Virus record (IMG/VR): IMGVR_UViG_3300033144_001334
Location: 1 to 37,925 of that record
Direction: 5' to 3' (one strand)
Length of the DNA: 37,925 bases
Origin: a virus
Shown: in pieces, positions 2,230 to 21,609 of the stretch
How the letters are laid out: each line of letters starts with the position of its first letter
Position numbering within the stretch: the first letter of the stretch is position 1
The notes under the pieces: generated by a model
Databases searched by the model: none
What the model was told of the DNA's origin: nothing
What the model saw: the letters and a program-made list of their open reading frames with translations, nothing else
Translations under genes and position numbers: made by a program

Positions 2230-2646
2230 ATGAGAGCAATAAAAAAAATTATTGTTCATTGTTCGGCTACTCCACGCAATAAAGATTTTTCAGCAGAAGA
2301 TATACGTGATTGGCACGTAAAAGGAAATGGATGGGATGATATTGGATATCATTTTGTTATTAGACTTGATGGCTCAATAGAATATGGCCGAATGGTGGAT
2401 AAATATGGAGCACACGTTGCAAGTCACAACTATGATAGCATAGGAATTTGTTATATTGGAGGGATGGATAAAGAAATGACAGAATGGGAAGACACAAGAA
2501 CAGAAAAACAAAAAGAATCATTAATTATTTTGCTAAAAATGTTAAAAAAAGCACATAAAGAAGCTATAATTTACGGACATTGTGATTTTTCCTCAAAAAT
2601 GTGTCCAAGTTTTGATGCAAAAGAAGAATATAAAGATATAAAATGA
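2230..2646 (+). CDS. N-acetylmuramoyl-L-alanine amidase endolysin (T7 lysozyme type)
   Basis: 138 residues, a complete Amidase_2/PGRP-fold domain without signal peptide. The enzyme cleaves the amide bond between N-acetylmuramic acid and L-Ala in peptidoglycan. Zinc ligands are visible as H10 (IIVHCSAT), H117 and C125 (YGHCDFSSKMCPSFDA), with Y40 and K123 in the positions of T7 Y46 and K128. The H-x7-C spacing equals that of T7 lysozyme. The length is close to T7 lysozyme (151). Export to the periplasm must depend on the holin encoded next, whose ATG overlaps this stop (ATGA). An out-of-frame ATG at 2226 is ignored because it stops quickly. Confidence 0.93.
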   Translation: MRAIKKIIVHCSATPRNKDFSAEDIRDWHVKGNGWDDIGYHFVIRLDGSIEYGRMVDKYGAHVASHNYDSIGICYIGGMDKEMTEWEDTRTEKQKESLIILLKMLKKAHKEAIIYGHCDFSSKMCPSFDAKEEYKDIK

Positions 2647-3047
2647 ATATATGGGCAAAAATTCTCGGAAACAAAGGAATTGACGTGGCTAACAAGGTTA
2701 GTGACGTGGTTGATCGCTTTGTTCACACACCAGATGAAAAAATAGAAGCAAAAAAAGCAATGTTAGACGTTTTTAATAATGCAGTTGCTGACGAACAAAA
2801 AAATATTAGTGAAAGATGGAATAGTGATATGACATCTGATAATGCTTTGTCTAAATCAGTAAGACCAGCTGTATTAATTTTTTTAATTTTCTGTACAACC
2901 GTGCTTATTTTTATTGATTCAAGTTTTACTACCTTTGTAGTAGATGATGAGTGGAAGGAATTATTAAAACTTTTACTTATGACAACTGTTGCGGCCTACT
3001 TCGGTGGTCGTTCATATGAAAAAGGAACTAAAATAAAAAATAAGTAA
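2643..3047 (+). CDS. Holin, GTA 3TM-like family
   Basis: 134 residues. A charged soluble N-terminal half (residues 1-70) is followed by SVRPAVLIFLIFCTTVLIFI (first membrane segment, about 74-92) and LLKLLLMTTVAAYFGGRSYEK (second, about 107-125), ending in a Lys-rich tail. The order of charged N-domain, (V)RP before a membrane helix, and a final helix ending in Y-F-G-G-R-S-Y-E-K is typical of the gene-transfer-agent holin family (GTA_holin_3TM). It would permeabilise the inner membrane to release the amidase encoded just upstream, which it overlaps by 4 bases. Confidence 0.8.
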   Translation: MNIWAKILGNKGIDVANKVSDVVDRFVHTPDEKIEAKKAMLDVFNNAVADEQKNISERWNSDMTSDNALSKSVRPAVLIFLIFCTTVLIFIDSSFTTFVVDDEWKELLKLLLMTTVAAYFGGRSYEKGTKIKNK

Positions 3048-3766
3048 TGGCAAAAATAGCATCGTATCCAATACAAAGTGTAATTCTGGGTGCAGACAAA
3101 TGGATTGGGACAGATGCTGCAAATGCTGATGCAACAAAAAACTTTACAGCTAATGATGTTGCGATATTTCTAAATACCTTTAACAAAATAGAGGTAAATG
3201 CATTAAGGTATAGATATCAAAATTGGAAAACAGGAGAAACAAGAAATAACGGTTCTATCTCTTTTGCAACATCAGACGCAGGTAATCCTAATTTTACAAG
3301 TCTTACTACTTTTATGTTAAGTCAATTTACGTTAAACTCTTCAGTAGACGTATCTTCTTATTATTCAGTACCTTTATTAAACTCTTCTGTGTTAATTTCT
3401 CAATGTGATGATCCATCAAGTTTTGGGTTATTTACCTTTACAAGCGTAAGTCAAGACAGTGCCGAACCTACTTTTTATGATATTGGACTTACCTCTTTAG
3501 TAGGGTCAGGTAGCTTAATAAACAACAAAGATTATTTTATATCTTTGCTGACGTATGGACAAACTGCTGGTGATAAAAATTATGTGTTCACTCAAGCAAC
3601 AAATGCAAACCCTTGGGTGGTAAATCATGGATTAAATAAATACCCATCAGTAAGTGTAGTCAATAACGCTAATATAACCGTTTACGGTGATGTACAATAT
3701 GATTCTTTGAATCAAGTAACAATAACATTTGCTGATCCAACTAATGGAAAAGCATACTTAAACTAA
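3047..3766 (+). CDS. Short tail fibre / receptor-binding protein, 239 aa
   Basis: 239 residues. Residues 1-43 (MAKIASYPIQ ... DKWIGTDAANADATKNF) match in layout the N-terminus of the 1559-residue fibre at 11051 (LLIGTDVSDNNKTVTF), suggesting a shared tail-attachment module. The middle is unrecognised. Residues 190-239 (WVVNHGLNKYPSVSVVNN, then VYGDVQYDSLNQVTITF and a GKAYLN end) are the classic C-terminal tip domain of many phage tail proteins. It overlaps the holin stop by one base (TAATG) and heads the fibre locus. Confidence 0.8.
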   Translation: MAKIASYPIQSVILGADKWIGTDAANADATKNFTANDVAIFLNTFNKIEVNALRYRYQNWKTGETRNNGSISFATSDAGNPNFTSLTTFMLSQFTLNSSVDVSSYYSVPLLNSSVLISQCDDPSSFGLFTFTSVSQDSAEPTFYDIGLTSLVGSGSLINNKDYFISLLTYGQTAGDKNYVFTQATNANPWVVNHGLNKYPSVSVVNNANITVYGDVQYDSLNQVTITFADPTNGKAYLN

Positions 3767-3778
3767 AAAAACAAAAAA

Positions 3779-4171
3779 ATGAAAAATATATTATTAGTAG
3801 TATTATTAAGTTTATTTACATCAGTAGCTTCAGCACAATTTATGGTAACAAGTATGGTAAGTTCACCAGCTGAAGGTGAAGAAATAAGTTTAGATAATTT
3901 AACAGACAACATAGGAGTAATGTATTCTATGGATAAAATAAGTGCAGGTATAATGATGAATGGGGATGATTATAATTTAGTAGCAAGATATTCTTTTGGT
4001 GAACATTTATATGCATACGGACTAATGACTGAAGAAGAAGAAATTTCTTTAGGAGTAGGTTATGCATTAAATGTATGGAATAATTTATACATTGAACCAT
4101 CATATTTAATGGATATGGAATCCGAAGACAGTGAGGGTGAACTTAAATTAAGTTTAACCTATAAATTTTAA
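3779..4171 (+). CDS. Secreted small outer-membrane beta-barrel protein
   Basis: 130 residues. Residues 1-19 (MKNILLVVLLSLFTSVASA) are a clear signal peptide with an A-S-A cleavage site before Q20. There is no Cys, so it is not a lipoprotein. The mature 111 residues alternate polar and hydrophobic positions in short strands (IGVMYSM, ISAGIMM, YNLVARYSF, LYAYGLM, ISLGVGYALN, LYIEPSYLM) with acidic loops. The protein ends LKLSLTYKF, a terminal-Phe strand of the type recognised by the BAM machinery. I therefore call a 6-8 strand barrel in the host outer membrane. It sits between two fibre genes, like lom near the phage lambda fibre genes. Adhesion, superinfection exclusion or lysis roles are possible; none is proven. 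Confidence 0.8.
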   Translation: MKNILLVVLLSLFTSVASAQFMVTSMVSSPAEGEEISLDNLTDNIGVMYSMDKISAGIMMNGDDYNLVARYSFGEHLYAYGLMTEEEEISLGVGYALNVWNNLYIEPSYLMDMESEDSEGELKLSLTYKF

Positions 4172-4191: not shown

Positions 4192-6837
4192 ATGGCAATT
4201 AATTTTTTACAAGACGTATCCTTAAATAATACTCAGTTAACAAACTTTAAGGTACAAAACTTAACAGGTACACTTCCTTCAAGTTTATCAGGAGAAGGTC
4301 AGTTAATATATAAAACAGATACAAATGAGCTTTATTTACACAAAGGATCAAATTCTTGGGAAGAATTAAGTACAGGTGGTTCTGTAACTTCGGTAGGTGT
4401 TTCAAGTAATTACTTGACAATTGGTAGTTCACCTATAACAAGTAGTGGAACGATATCAGTTAATATGCCAAATTCTGGAGTAACTGCAACTTCTTATACT
4501 CATGCAAGTATAACAGTAAATGCTCAAGGTATTATTACTGCAGCATCAAGTGGTACAGCAACATTAGGTGTAACTTCATTTACTAATGCAAACGGAACAT
4601 TTGTTTCGGCAGGAACAGCTAACTCAGCAGCAACTGGTGCTGTAACTATGGGTACTATAGATTTATCTGCAACTGGTACTCCAAGTAGTTCTACGTTCTT
4701 AAGAGGTGATAATGTTTGGGCATCTATTCCAGGAGGATATACTTCGTGGACACTTCAAGGTGATTCGGGAACAAACTTAACGGTTACTGACGGAACTACA
4801 GTAGATATAGCGGGAGGAACGGGAATTTCTTCAGCTACAACTGCAACAGGAATGACTTTAACAAACACGGGGGTAACTTCTGCAGTTGCGGGGTCAAATA
4901 TTAGTGTATCAGGTGCTACAGGTGCGGTTACTATTGCTTATACAGGTGGAACAGGTTCTATGGATTCTTGGACTTTAGCTGGAGACAGTGGTTCACAAAG
5001 TATAACTAATGGAAACACTGCAACATTTGTTGGTGGTACTGGTTTAACAACAGCTGCAAGTGCAACTGATGATTTAACTATTACTCTTGATGACACAGCT
5101 GTAACACCAGGTTCATATACCTTAGCAAGTATTACGGTTGACCAACAAGGACGTATTACTGCAGCATCCAGTGGTTCTTCAGGTTCAATGTCTTCTTGGA
5201 AGATTGGATCAACATCGGGAACTGATCAATCAGTAACAAATGGACAAACAGTAGATATAGTTGGTGGTACATATATTACAGGTGCAGTTGGAGGAACAAG
5301 AACTGTAACTCTTACTCACGATTCAACATCAAGAAGTGACACAACAAGTTCATCATCTCCTGGGTCAGCAGGAACTTTTAGCGTAGTTGATAGTGTATCC
5401 ACAAATGCAACTGGTCACTTAACAGCTATTAATGTTAAAACAGTTACTATGCCAACTTCTCCAACTGTATACGCAGGTTGGACTTTAGATGGAGATTCGG
5501 GATCTGCACAAACAATAGCATCTGGTAATACAGCAACTTTTATTGGAGGTTCAGGTATAACAACTGCAGTAGGAGCAACCGATGACTTAACAATTACTAA
5601 CTCAGGAGTTTTAAGTAATGTTGCAGGAACAGGTATCGGAGTAAGTGGAGCAACTGGAAATGTTACTATATCCAACACGGGTGTAACTGCGTTAACAGGC
5701 GGTACAGGTATTAGCGTAAGTGCTTCTACAGGATCAGTAACAATAACTAACACATCTACTAATACAGATGCTAATTATGCATTAAGTGTTGGTGCGGTGT
5801 CATCAAACGAATCCACATTATCTTTAGTTGGTTCTTCAGGTGGTTCTACAACGACAGCTAAATTCTCAGGAACAACTTCTGAAATAGAAATTACTACACC
5901 ATCAACAGGAAATGGTGGAGATATTACTATTGGTTTACCAAGTAATGTAACTATTCAGTCAAGTTTAAATGTAGGGAGTGGAGGAATAGAATCAACAGGA
6001 GCATTAAATGTAACAAGCACAGGTCAATCAGCTGTTGCAGGTCAATTAACTGTACCAGCAACACCTTCTGCATCAACAGATGCAGCATCTAAAGGATATG
6101 TATTATCACAAGTTGCAGGAGTTGGAGCTTTTCAAGGAGCTTATAATGCCAACACTAACTCACCTGCTTTATCGGGAGCATCTAACGTAGCGTTAACTCA
6201 AGGTGACTTCTATGTAGTAAGTGTAGCAGGTAATGCTTTCTTTAGTACACAACTTGAACCTGGAGACTTTATATTTGCTAATAGTAATATTGCAGCAAGT
6301 TCTTCTCCTTCTAAATCAGATTATACTATTGTAATAGCTGATGAAAACATTGCAGGAGCAGGAGCAACTGACGGTGCTACTAATAAAGGGGTCGCAGGAT
6401 TTGATTCGGCAAACTTTGGTGTAACAGCAAATGGATTTGTAACAATAGATAATTCAGGAGTATCAGCCGCATCATACGGTGGTGTAACTAAATCATTAAA
6501 TGCAACAGTTGATGCAAAAGGATTTGTTACTGCAATGTCTGAAAATACAATTGCAATTCCAGCATCACAAATTACAGATTTCTGTTCTGCTGTAACAACG
6601 TGTATTGGTGATAATCATAATTTTGTAGCTAACATAGGTAATAATTCAGCAACTTCTTATGCAATTACTCATAATTTAGGAACAAGAGATGTTATGGTGC
6701 AAGTTTACCGTAACGAATCTCCTTATGACAATATAAGTGTTCAAGTTGATAGAACTTCTACATCACAAATTACTCTTAGTACAGTAGAACCTTTAGATAC
6801 TAATGAGGCAAGAGTACTAATTACTGAAATACTTTAG
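4192..6837 (+). CDS. Long modular tail fibre protein, 881 aa
   Basis: 881 residues, very rich in Ser, Thr and Gly. The N-terminus carries GEGQLIYKTDTNELYLHKGS and then SVTSVGVSS. Four copies of a W-T-L-x-G-D-S-G-S...GGTGI module begin at about residues 185, 259, 335 and 429, mixed with SYTxASITVxxQGxITAASSG modules and a DTTSSSSPGSAGTFSVVDSV module. A linker of the FLRGDNVWASIPG type appears at about residue 171. The C-terminal 80 residues (SYAITHNLGTRDVMVQVYRN ... LITEIL) form the common fibre tip domain. Such mosaic fibres trimerise and bind cell-surface glycans or proteins. Long minus-strand ORFs opposite it are compositional shadows. Confidence 0.88.
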   Translation: MAINFLQDVSLNNTQLTNFKVQNLTGTLPSSLSGEGQLIYKTDTNELYLHKGSNSWEELSTGGSVTSVGVSSNYLTIGSSPITSSGTISVNMPNSGVTATSYTHASITVNAQGIITAASSGTATLGVTSFTNANGTFVSAGTANSAATGAVTMGTIDLSATGTPSSSTFLRGDNVWASIPGGYTSWTLQGDSGTNLTVTDGTTVDIAGGTGISSATTATGMTLTNTGVTSAVAGSNISVSGATGAVTIAYTGGTGSMDSWTLAGDSGSQSITNGNTATFVGGTGLTTAASATDDLTITLDDTAVTPGSYTLASITVDQQGRITAASSGSSGSMSSWKIGSTSGTDQSVTNGQTVDIVGGTYITGAVGGTRTVTLTHDSTSRSDTTSSSSPGSAGTFSVVDSVSTNATGHLTAINVKTVTMPTSPTVYAGWTLDGDSGSAQTIASGNTATFIGGSGITTAVGATDDLTITNSGVLSNVAGTGIGVSGATGNVTISNTGVTALTGGTGISVSASTGSVTITNTSTNTDANYALSVGAVSSNESTLSLVGSSGGSTTTAKFSGTTSEIEITTPSTGNGGDITIGLPSNVTIQSSLNVGSGGIESTGALNVTSTGQSAVAGQLTVPATPSASTDAASKGYVLSQVAGVGAFQGAYNANTNSPALSGASNVALTQGDFYVVSVAGNAFFSTQLEPGDFIFANSNIAASSSPSKSDYTIVIADENIAGAGATDGATNKGVAGFDSANFGVTANGFVTIDNSGVSAASYGGVTKSLNATVDAKGFVTAMSENTIAIPASQITDFCSAVTTCIGDNHNFVANIGNNSATSYAITHNLGTRDVMVQVYRNESPYDNISVQVDRTSTSQITLSTVEPLDTNEARVLITEIL
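4744..5575 (+). repeat. Four GDSG-type fibre repeats (protein-level)
   Basis: Diverged repeat units start near 4744, 4966, 5194 and 5476. Each encodes (S/G)W(T/K)(L/I)x(G/S)(D/T)SG, then N/D-G-x-T, then GGTGI-like residues over about 30 codons. Related units occur in the next fibre gene at 7554-8625. Confidence 0.75.
5317..5454 (+). repeat. DTTSS fibre module, copy 1 (138 bp)
   Basis: This 46-codon segment encodes HDSTSRSDTTSSSSPGSAGT, then NATGHLTAINVKTVTMP. It aligns without gaps to 7953-8090 in the next fibre gene. Confidence 0.8.
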
Positions 6838-19170: not shown

Positions 19171-21609
19171 ATGAAAGGAATAAGTATAGATATAAAATCC
19201 GCTGCTTTTCCCGATCAGTTTGTATCTGATTCAAAAAAGAAAACAAAAGAATTTGGATTACAAGTGGGTCAAGCTATTCAGTATGAATGGTTCAGGAAAG
19301 AAGGGGTAAATCAGTGTAGATTTTACAGTCAATGGTGGGAGTTTAATCGTCTAAGATTGTACGCAAGAGGTGAGCAATCAATAGCAAAATATAAAAACGA
19401 ATTAGCTGTAGATGGAGATTTATCATATTTAAATTTAGATTGGACACCCGTCCCTGTCATTCCTAAATTTGTTGACATTGTTGTCAATGGAATGTCTGAT
19501 AGATTATTTAAAGTAAAAGCATATGCTCAAGATGCCATGTCATCAGAAAAAAGAGGGGAGTTTCAAAACATGGTTGAAAAAAATGTTATATCAAAAGATT
19601 TATTCAAGCAAATAGAAAAAGACTTTGATGTAAAGTTATTTTCTATGAATCCTGATGAATTACCAGAAAGTGATTTAGAGATGGAGCTTTATATGCAAAT
19701 GAATTATAAACCTGCTATTGAAATTGCAAACGAAGTTGCAATAAATACATTATTAGAAGAAAATCATTATTCACATACTCGTAAAAGATGTGATATGGAT
19801 TTAATGACTTTAGGTTTATCAGTTGTCAAACATAATTTTCAGTTAGGAGATGGTATAAGAGTAGAGTATGTTGATCCTGCCAATGTAGTTTATAGCTATA
19901 CTGAAAACCCATATTTTAAAGATTGTTTTTATTGGGGAGAAATTAAAACTGTACCTATTGGTGAATTGATAAAAATAAAGCCTGACTTGACTAATGAAGA
20001 TTTAGAAGAAATATCTAAATACAGTCAAGCATGGTATCAATATTATAATGTAGCTGCAATGTATGAAAACTCTATGTTTTATAGAGATACAGTAACATTA
20101 ATGTATTTTAATTATAAAACCACTAACACTTTTGTATATAAAAAGAAACAAACAGCTACGGGTAATTATAAGGTAGTTCCCAAAGATGATGATTTTAATC
20201 CGCCAGAAGAAATGATGGAGGAAGGTAAGTTTGAAAAAGTTACAAAAAAAATAGATGTATGGTATGACGGTATAATGGTTATGGGTACAAATATATTGTT
20301 GAAATGGGAAATGGCACAAAACATGGTTAGGCCTCAATCAGCAAGTCAGTATGCTATGCCTAATTATATAGCAACAGCTCCAAGAATGTACAAAGGTAAT
20401 ATTGAATCATTAGTCAGAAGAATGATACCTTTTACTGATTTAATACAAATGACTCATTTAAAATTACAACAAGTAATTTCAAGAGTTGTTCCTGATGGTG
20501 TATTTATAGATGCCGATGGATTAAACGAAGTAGATTTAGGTACAGGAAATGCTTATAATCCTGAAGATGCATTAAGATTATATTTTCAAACGGGTAGTGT
20601 TATAGGTAGAAGTTTTACTCAAGATGGTGAGTTTAATAATGCTAAAGTTCCTATTACACAACTTACATCTTCAAGTGGCTCTCAAAAAATGCAAATGTTA
20701 ATTGGTAATTATAATCATTATATGAATATGATTAGGCAAGTAACAGGATTAAATGAGGCAAGAGATGGTAGTACGCCTGACCCTAATTCATTAGTAGGGG
20801 TTCAAAAATTAGCTGCTTTAAATTCAAACACAGCAACAAGACATATATTAGAAGGAAGTTTATATTTAACTCAAACTTTAGCTGAAGCCTTGTCTATTAG
20901 AACAGCTGACGTATTAGAGTATTCGGATTTTGCAGATGAGTTTGCTATGCAAATAGGAAAATATAATGTAGGTTTATTAGATGATATAAAAAACCTATAC
21001 ATATATGACTTTGGTATATTTATAGAGGTTTCACCTGATGAAGAACAACAAGCATTGTTAGAAGCTAATATTCAAACAGCTCTGAACAAACAAGATATAA
21101 ACTTAGAAGACGCTATTGATATTAGAGAAATAAAAAATCTTAAAATGGCTAATCAATTGTTAAAAGTTAAAAGAAAACAAAAGGCTTTACAAGATCAACA
21201 GCAAAAACAACAAGAGCAACAAATGCAAGCTCAAGTAAATATGCAGTCGCAACAAGCAGCTGCACAAATTGCTATGCAAAAAATTCAAATGGAAACACAA
21301 TCTAAAATGCAAATAAAACAAGCTGAGATTGGTTTTGAAATAGAAAAAATGAAAAATGAGGCTGCATTGAAAGAACAATTAATGCAGACTGAATTCCAAA
21401 TGAATATGCAGCTAAAAGGACTTGAACAATCTCAAATAGATATGAGAGAGAGAAACAGAGAAAAAGCAAAAGACAACAGAATTAGTCAGCAATCCTCACA
21501 ACAATCAAAATTAATTGACCAGCGTAAAAATAATTTACCACCTATAAGTTTTGAGTCTAATGAAGATAGTATGGATGGTTTTGACTTAGCTGAGTTTGAC
21601 CCACGATAG
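19171..21609 (+). CDS. Portal protein, 812 aa
   Basis: 812 residues, the size class of crAss-like and P22-like portals. It forms the dodecameric ring through which DNA enters and leaves the head. The body is mixed alpha/beta with segments such as DWTPVPVIPKFVDIVVNGMS, YVDPANVVYSYTENPYFKDC and GNYNHYMNMIRQVTGLNEA-like helices, as in portal wing and stem regions. Residues about 669-790 are an extreme Gln/Met/Lys-rich coiled coil, consistent with the C-terminal barrel of long portals. The ATG directly follows the TerL stop with no gap. The assignment rests on position, size and topology. Terminase docking and head nucleation are known roles of portals. Confidence 0.85.
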   Translation: MKGISIDIKSAAFPDQFVSDSKKKTKEFGLQVGQAIQYEWFRKEGVNQCRFYSQWWEFNRLRLYARGEQSIAKYKNELAVDGDLSYLNLDWTPVPVIPKFVDIVVNGMSDRLFKVKAYAQDAMSSEKRGEFQNMVEKNVISKDLFKQIEKDFDVKLFSMNPDELPESDLEMELYMQMNYKPAIEIANEVAINTLLEENHYSHTRKRCDMDLMTLGLSVVKHNFQLGDGIRVEYVDPANVVYSYTENPYFKDCFYWGEIKTVPIGELIKIKPDLTNEDLEEISKYSQAWYQYYNVAAMYENSMFYRDTVTLMYFNYKTTNTFVYKKKQTATGNYKVVPKDDDFNPPEEMMEEGKFEKVTKKIDVWYDGIMVMGTNILLKWEMAQNMVRPQSASQYAMPNYIATAPRMYKGNIESLVRRMIPFTDLIQMTHLKLQQVISRVVPDGVFIDADGLNEVDLGTGNAYNPEDALRLYFQTGSVIGRSFTQDGEFNNAKVPITQLTSSSGSQKMQMLIGNYNHYMNMIRQVTGLNEARDGSTPDPNSLVGVQKLAALNSNTATRHILEGSLYLTQTLAEALSIRTADVLEYSDFADEFAMQIGKYNVGLLDDIKNLYIYDFGIFIEVSPDEEQQALLEANIQTALNKQDINLEDAIDIREIKNLKMANQLLKVKRKQKALQDQQQKQQEQQMQAQVNMQSQQAAAQIAMQKIQMETQSKMQIKQAEIGFEIEKMKNEAALKEQLMQTEFQMNMQLKGLEQSQIDMRERNREKAKDNRISQQSSQQSKLIDQRKNNLPPISFESNEDSMDGFDLAEFDPR

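Follow-up and report, generated by a model that had tools for sequence, protein, structure and literature searches.

The window analysed here, a viral record of 37,925 bases, encodes a small protein that is in all probability (roughly 0.9) a Sec-exported outer-membrane β-barrel related to barrels of its likely hosts. This host relationship, which an earlier note on the same DNA had missed, is the most informative fact about the gene. During infection the virus probably re-dresses the surface of its host with this barrel, because the host family has a related barrel of its own and unrelated phages carry the gene at many positions. Phage-borne barrels such as Lom are already known, and the barrel itself is ordinary biology. 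New are its 67 relatives in two phage types, its chromosomal relatives in hosts, the split between phage and host copies, and a gene for a two-transmembrane (2-TM) protein downstream of the barrel.

The reading frame (Table 1) starts with a Sec signal peptide that has neither a cysteine at the cleavage site nor a lipobox, and it ends on LKLSLTYKF, an outer-membrane C-terminal motif. Cleavage at ASA↓Q conforms to the Q-rule of Bacteroidota, according to which a glutamine immediately follows the cleavage site (PMC5837995, PMC10653852). The ASA signal peptide, the missing lipobox cysteine, the alternating strands and the terminal Phe in LTYKF are thus all found in the sequence as the earlier note had described them. 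Among the 34 window ORFs of at least 60 residues, only the barrel ORF combines a Sec/Q-rule signal peptide with an outer-membrane C-terminus, and the two signatures occurred together in none of 1360 shuffled window ORFs and in none of 20,000 shuffles of the barrel ORF itself. Homologues lacking the signal peptide had been named as evidence that would speak against an exported barrel; the full-length aligned relatives, down to approximately 33% identity, retain both the signal peptide and the C-terminal motif. Comparison with five close relatives gives a dN/dS of 0.07-0.16, which corresponds to strong purifying selection, and positions 3779-4171 are therefore a real gene. The extracellular loops are under purifying selection as well (dN/dS 0.02-0.12 within the window group), while the high value of the signal peptide comes from 19 codons only.

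Table 1. Positions of the barrel gene, its parts and the associated genes (window positions unless a contig is named)
Feature	Position	Strand	Basis
Barrel gene (130 aa, predicted secreted 8-stranded outer-membrane β-barrel)	3779..4171	+	ATG 3779 to stop 4171
Signal peptide MKNILLVVLLSLFTSVASA, cut at ASA↓Q in accord with the Q-rule of Bacteroidota	3779..3835	+	sequence
Mature barrel, 111 aa	3836..4168	+	AlphaFold2 model, charges, loops
88-aa bitopic protein with a coiled coil behind an N-terminal transmembrane segment	1960..2226	+	topology by eye
N-acetylmuramoyl-L-alanine amidase (endolysin)	2230..2646	+	PF01510, PHROG 822 (E 5e-58)
Holin	2643..3047	+	PHROG 3427 (E 9e-20), PF11351
239-aa probable fibre/tip-type structural protein, directly upstream of barrel	3047..3766	+	shared C-terminal domain
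881-aa repetitive fibre-like structural protein, directly downstream of barrel	4192..6837	+	sequence; PHROG 8309 at C-terminus
Portal protein	19171..21609	+	groups phage with elemovirus and Cellulophaga podophages
2-TM genes, examples	L050:5482-5709, L037:5439-5663, L038:5434-5658, L041:2058-2297, others		
~375-aa secreted protein	L167:2805-3929, L180:2846-3970, L169:2829-3965; L032:8783-9895	L032 (-)	

An AlphaFold2 model built on 38 aligned viral sequences (mean pLDDT 83.6, pTM 0.69) has an N-terminal helix, corresponding to the signal peptide, followed by eight strands within residues 20-129 (20-28, 45-51, 54-61, 64-73, 77-83, 89-100, 103-112 and 120-129). Its top superposition is the OprF N-domain (Z 12.4, 2.6 Å over 101 residues), and other matches are the designed transmembrane barrel 6x9z (Z 11.8), Opa60 (11.7), OmpA (11.4) and NspA (10.8); OprF-N, OmpA, NspA and PagL all reach Z 10-12 across approximately 100 residues. 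Superposition on these known barrels argues for a closed barrel. The structure model in which the earlier note had hoped to see a closed barrel of six to eight strands accordingly has eight, with small outer-membrane barrels as best matches, and together with the signal peptide and the C-terminal motif it supports the outer-membrane barrel call. Foldseek against the PDB returned modest E-values (4.5e-3 and weaker), with OmpX and Ail among the matches, and a profile search of solved-structure sequences gave chance-level matches only. The viral library contains a clear homologue in a protein from an uncultured virus (36% identity, E 1.7e-9), followed by many other phage barrels. The mature barrel contains 20 D/E residues versus 4 K/R, and the acids lie mostly in the four predicted extracellular loops. 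Streptavidin-type eight-stranded barrels also superpose well (Z ~10-11); this identity was rejected because of the Sec signal, the outward hydrophobic alternation and the outer-membrane C-terminus.

With eight antiparallel strands in the model, a Sec signal, no lipobox and a C-terminal aromatic signal, the protein has the features of eight-stranded outer-membrane barrels. The Pfam family of Ail, Lom and OmpX matches neither the window protein (E up to 1) nor 38 relatives (E up to 0.1). Sixteen of these 38 relatives match OMP_b-brl (PF13505; best E 1.5e-5) and five weakly match Phage_OMP (PF24653; best E 0.0037), while the window protein itself matches neither of the two; PorP/SprF (PF11751) scores 16.3 bits (E 0.0071), below its curated cut-off of 22.3 bits. 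Like lambda Lom and the Ail-OmpX proteins, the window protein is an eight-stranded barrel, which in the case of Lom is phage-borne and encoded between fibre genes; J and stf flank lambda lom, which the phage can do without under laboratory conditions (PMC10695390). It differs in its approximately 111 mature residues, its chromosomal relative in Flavobacteriales and the missing Ail/Lom Pfam match. The comparison with Lom and Ail drawn in the earlier note consequently holds for fold and layout but not for the sequence family. The cyanophage barrels of Phage_OMP are likewise phage-encoded barrels of outer-membrane type, but from another host phylum. In phage T5, llp adjoins the gene of the receptor-binding protein, and Llp blocks the receptor (PMC9586334). 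Llp and Cor are likewise phage-encoded and reside in the outer membrane, where the window barrel is predicted to lie, but they are lipoprotein exclusion proteins, whereas the ASA↓Q site of the window barrel lacks the lipobox cysteine. Phage spanins share with it the envelope-directed gene near holin and endolysin, but the barrel has neither a lipobox nor a C-terminal transmembrane helix; a published survey reported only unimolecular spanins in Bacteroidetes phages (PMC12596118). By the sequence features tested, the barrel would thus work like a Lom-kind phage-borne barrel, yet it appears to stand outside the Ail/Lom, PorP/SprF, Llp/Cor and spanin families.

When one genome per species was scanned, 27 bacterial loci came up. 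Every one of them is labelled as Flavobacteriales or Bacteroidetes (in one case as Chryseobacterium), and their identity to the window protein is 29-42%, with 36-42% at the best loci. The homology with the host family is full-length, residues 1-130 being matched at E 8e-29 and weaker, and allowed a joint alignment. The host barrels are chromosomal and agree with the window protein in sequence family, signal peptide type and C-terminus; they differ in being cellular genes, in a longer, variable L2 loop in most copies and in their separate side of the tree. Their neighbours are dnaJ, two ABC genes and a porin-like gene on one side, and alaS, an M23 peptidase, a MerR regulator and a DksA-like gene on the other. 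Adjacency to alaS is found in 35 of 47 loci, and a second conserved site accounts for 8 more. In the family that includes the BACL11 MAG, 41 of 52 genomes (0.8-2.1 Mb) carry the barrel, usually as one copy. An order-wide draw gave a match in 41 of 196 genomes, about 35 of them strong, and in a phylum-wide draw of 296 genomes only the reference genome itself matched, the other 295 being without a match. Because of this restricted range of the host barrel, the BACL11 MAG family is the predicted host, which suggests that the phages infect this streamlined marine family of Flavobacteriales. One host genome encodes two adjacent barrel copies that lie far apart in the tree (G037:C16:22381-23292, L205). 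In several genomes (L091, L094, L100, L103, L105) many residues of the host L2 loop are His, Asp or Glu, as in HEGHDHEED, and from this composition the loop may possibly bind metal.

Phage and host copies are split by a single branch in 88% of bootstrap trees (branch support 86/61) and, in a second tree, in 91% (support 90/85), both trees being unrooted and based on approximately 140 columns. A third tree with a larger phage set needs two label changes, where the other two need one each. For this reason, it is likely rather than proven that the phage lineage arose once; a single entry into phages followed by spread among them is the simplest reading, and the direction of transfer would be from host to phage. 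Phage and host copies resemble each other in loops L1, L3 and L4, which are conserved inside the window group as well. Loop L2 spans 3-25 residues in host copies and 3-9 in phage copies, which fits a copy without the variable surface loop. A short L2 had been considered as a mark of phage copies only and was dropped: in the enlarged set of host copies, some have a short L2 too, so the loss of the loop is not phage-specific.

Three scans of IMG/VR gave the 67 distinct related sequences, a few of which are truncated where their contig stops. That ASAQFMV looks invariant among them is in part due to the pattern used for searching, and later scans gave the variants AGAQNFMV and CSAQFMAV. When 50,697 annotated phage genomes were searched by tblastn with the barrels of the window, of T4-like phages and of hosts, there was no match, and a paper on Baltic Flavobacterium phages contains no outer-membrane or proteomics information. 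The portal type of the window is present in 10 of the 13 larger barrel-bearing records, and the cultured phages with this portal are the Flavobacterium elemoviruses and Cellulophaga phages, which are podophages. Another barrel-bearing group consists of T4-like myophages with the T4-type major capsid protein gp23 (PF07068), in which the barrel is located in the head module between the prohead protease and the gp22/gp23 genes. Since some records have the window-type portal and others the T4-type gp23, two unrelated phage types carry the barrel.

Across these phages the barrel occurs in about eleven gene contexts, with a holin or endolysin within a few genes in about half of them. The window group has the order amidase, holin, 239-residue protein, barrel and 881-residue fibre. 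Other orders are bitopic protein, thioredoxin fold, holin, M15 endolysin, barrel and 2-TM (L038/L048); DUF5675, barrel, 2-TM, bitopic protein, 126-residue protein and holin (L041/L042); DUF5675, barrel and, directly after it, a holin of PHROG 9987 (L156/L164); and a 375-residue secreted protein followed by the barrel, with bitopic and thioredoxin-fold genes further on (L162/L167/L169/L172/L180). Furthermore, the barrel is found behind a class II ribonucleotide reductase (L031-L034 and L135-L147) and with small basic proteins (L035/L036). The proposed position shortly after the lysis genes is borne out in the window by the amidase and holin just upstream. The proposed linkage to fibre genes recurs among the close relatives of the window but not in other groups, where lysis cassettes, the T4-type head module or the ribonucleotide reductase take their place. 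In the window itself, the downstream gene is fibre-like as claimed, but the fibre identity of the upstream 239-residue protein is likely only, because its shared C-terminal domain sits in phage proteins of unassigned function. Its residues 174-239 are similar to portions of proteins from Streptococcus, Dinoroseobacter, Erwinia and Thermus phages, and represent a widespread uncharacterised domain.

The gene may be regarded as a phage-resident version of the outer-membrane barrel of the host family. It would be expressed during infection, and its product would be cleaved by signal peptidase I and inserted by BAM, where it would compete with or supplement the host's own barrel. The surface of the infected cell and of its debris would be altered, and the benefit would be that phages which make use of this barrel, or of one of its partners, re-adsorb and superinfect less. 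By analogy, because llp adjoins a receptor-binding gene and lom sits between fibre genes, surface remodelling against re-adsorption is the function we tentatively prefer, at somewhat less than even odds. Receptor masking, a change in adhesion and disruption of the outer membrane by the barrel are possible. Two observations count against re-adsorption: the conservation of L1, L3 and L4 is easier to reconcile with a shared biochemical function than with an arms race, and most other phage groups have lysis genes or the head module next to the barrel in place of fibre genes.

The same loop conservation, together with the relationship to the host, makes it nearly as likely, if still rather unlikely on its own account, that the barrel is an auxiliary host gene that maintains a putative outer-membrane role of the host protein, for example in keeping the envelope intact or in binding cations through the acidic loops, at a time when the host's own genes are shut off. 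This would agree with the relation to a single-copy gene in most genomes of one host family, with acidic loops conserved in phage and host copies under strong purifying selection, and with carriage by unrelated phages. However, the phage copies form a lineage of their own and therefore are not recent top-up copies, and many of them have shorter loops.

A role in lysis is less probable again, but linkage to lysis genes, the 2-TM partner and the lack of any lipobox protein recognised in the scan described below keep it open. Together with a small inner-membrane protein (2-TM, holin or the coiled-coil protein of 1960-2226), the barrel would then help to open the outer membrane and so stand in for a lipoprotein spanin. 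The amidase and holin of the window group and the holins or endolysins by the barrel in L038/L048, L041/L042 and L156/L164 are in line with this. In 33 of the 67 distinct sequences, moreover, a 2-TM gene of one family (74-79 residues) follows 23-163 bases downstream of the barrel, in both the T4-like and the podo-type phages; it is absent from the window group. This family has no Pfam or PHROG match and no tblastn match in the 50,697 annotated phage genomes, and as a next-door gene in many relatives it may be a partner of the barrel. A crude scan, covering the window and, in a 65.6 kb close relative, the parts outside the counterpart of the window's own region, found no lipobox protein. On the other hand, the barrel lies in the head module of T4-like phages and behind ribonucleotide reductase in others, and in hosts its relatives are chromosomal genes of an ordinary kind. 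A position near lysis genes is also known for surface morons, lambda bor being an example, and the crudeness of the lipobox scan weighs on the same side. It is doubtful, at lower odds still, that the barrel and a small inner-membrane protein (2-TM, holin or bitopic) form a lipoprotein-free two-membrane module that controls the envelope of infected Bacteroidota as a spanin-like or exclusion system, built around a host-derived outer-membrane protein and common to unrelated phage types. That the barrel is a virion component displayed via the fibre locus is very improbable: it does lie between structural genes in the window and in the head module of T4-like phages, but the cleavable Sec signal and outer-membrane C-terminus are conserved in full-length aligned relatives, and it is related to chromosomal membrane-type proteins of the host.

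Several other envelope-directed genes were observed in these neighbourhoods. The 88-residue protein of the window has a layout like that of an inner-membrane spanin and relatives in 12 of 14 barrel-bearing viral records, with no tblastn match in the 50,697 annotated phage genomes. Directly upstream of the barrel, five contigs encode a conserved secreted protein of approximately 375 residues; its model is strand-rich and of low confidence (pLDDT 54.6), with the C-terminal end NYVIF, and it is possibly a second, larger phage-encoded outer-membrane barrel. Membrane-anchored or secreted proteins also adjoin bitopic or holin genes (L038:3621-4022, L041:2623-3000, L167:5432-5788, L172:3928-4317), three of the four matching the thioredoxin fold in Pfam and the one in L041 being similar by eye.

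Most known examples of phage-borne outer-membrane barrels come from coliphages, vibriophages and cyanophages, and, to our knowledge, the lysis and exclusion genes of Bacteroidota phages are poorly known. Here, one barrel family ties two unrelated phage types to the near-universal barrel of a single uncultured, streamlined family of marine Flavobacteriales, and allows the hosts of many uncultured marine phages to be predicted from a gene. Worth experiment are the relative in hosts, the occurrence in unrelated phages and the conserved small membrane partner. They offer a testable case of a virus that re-dresses its host with a relative of the host's own surface protein, and the conserved 2-TM partner gene could reveal a new envelope-acting phage module in Bacteroidota.
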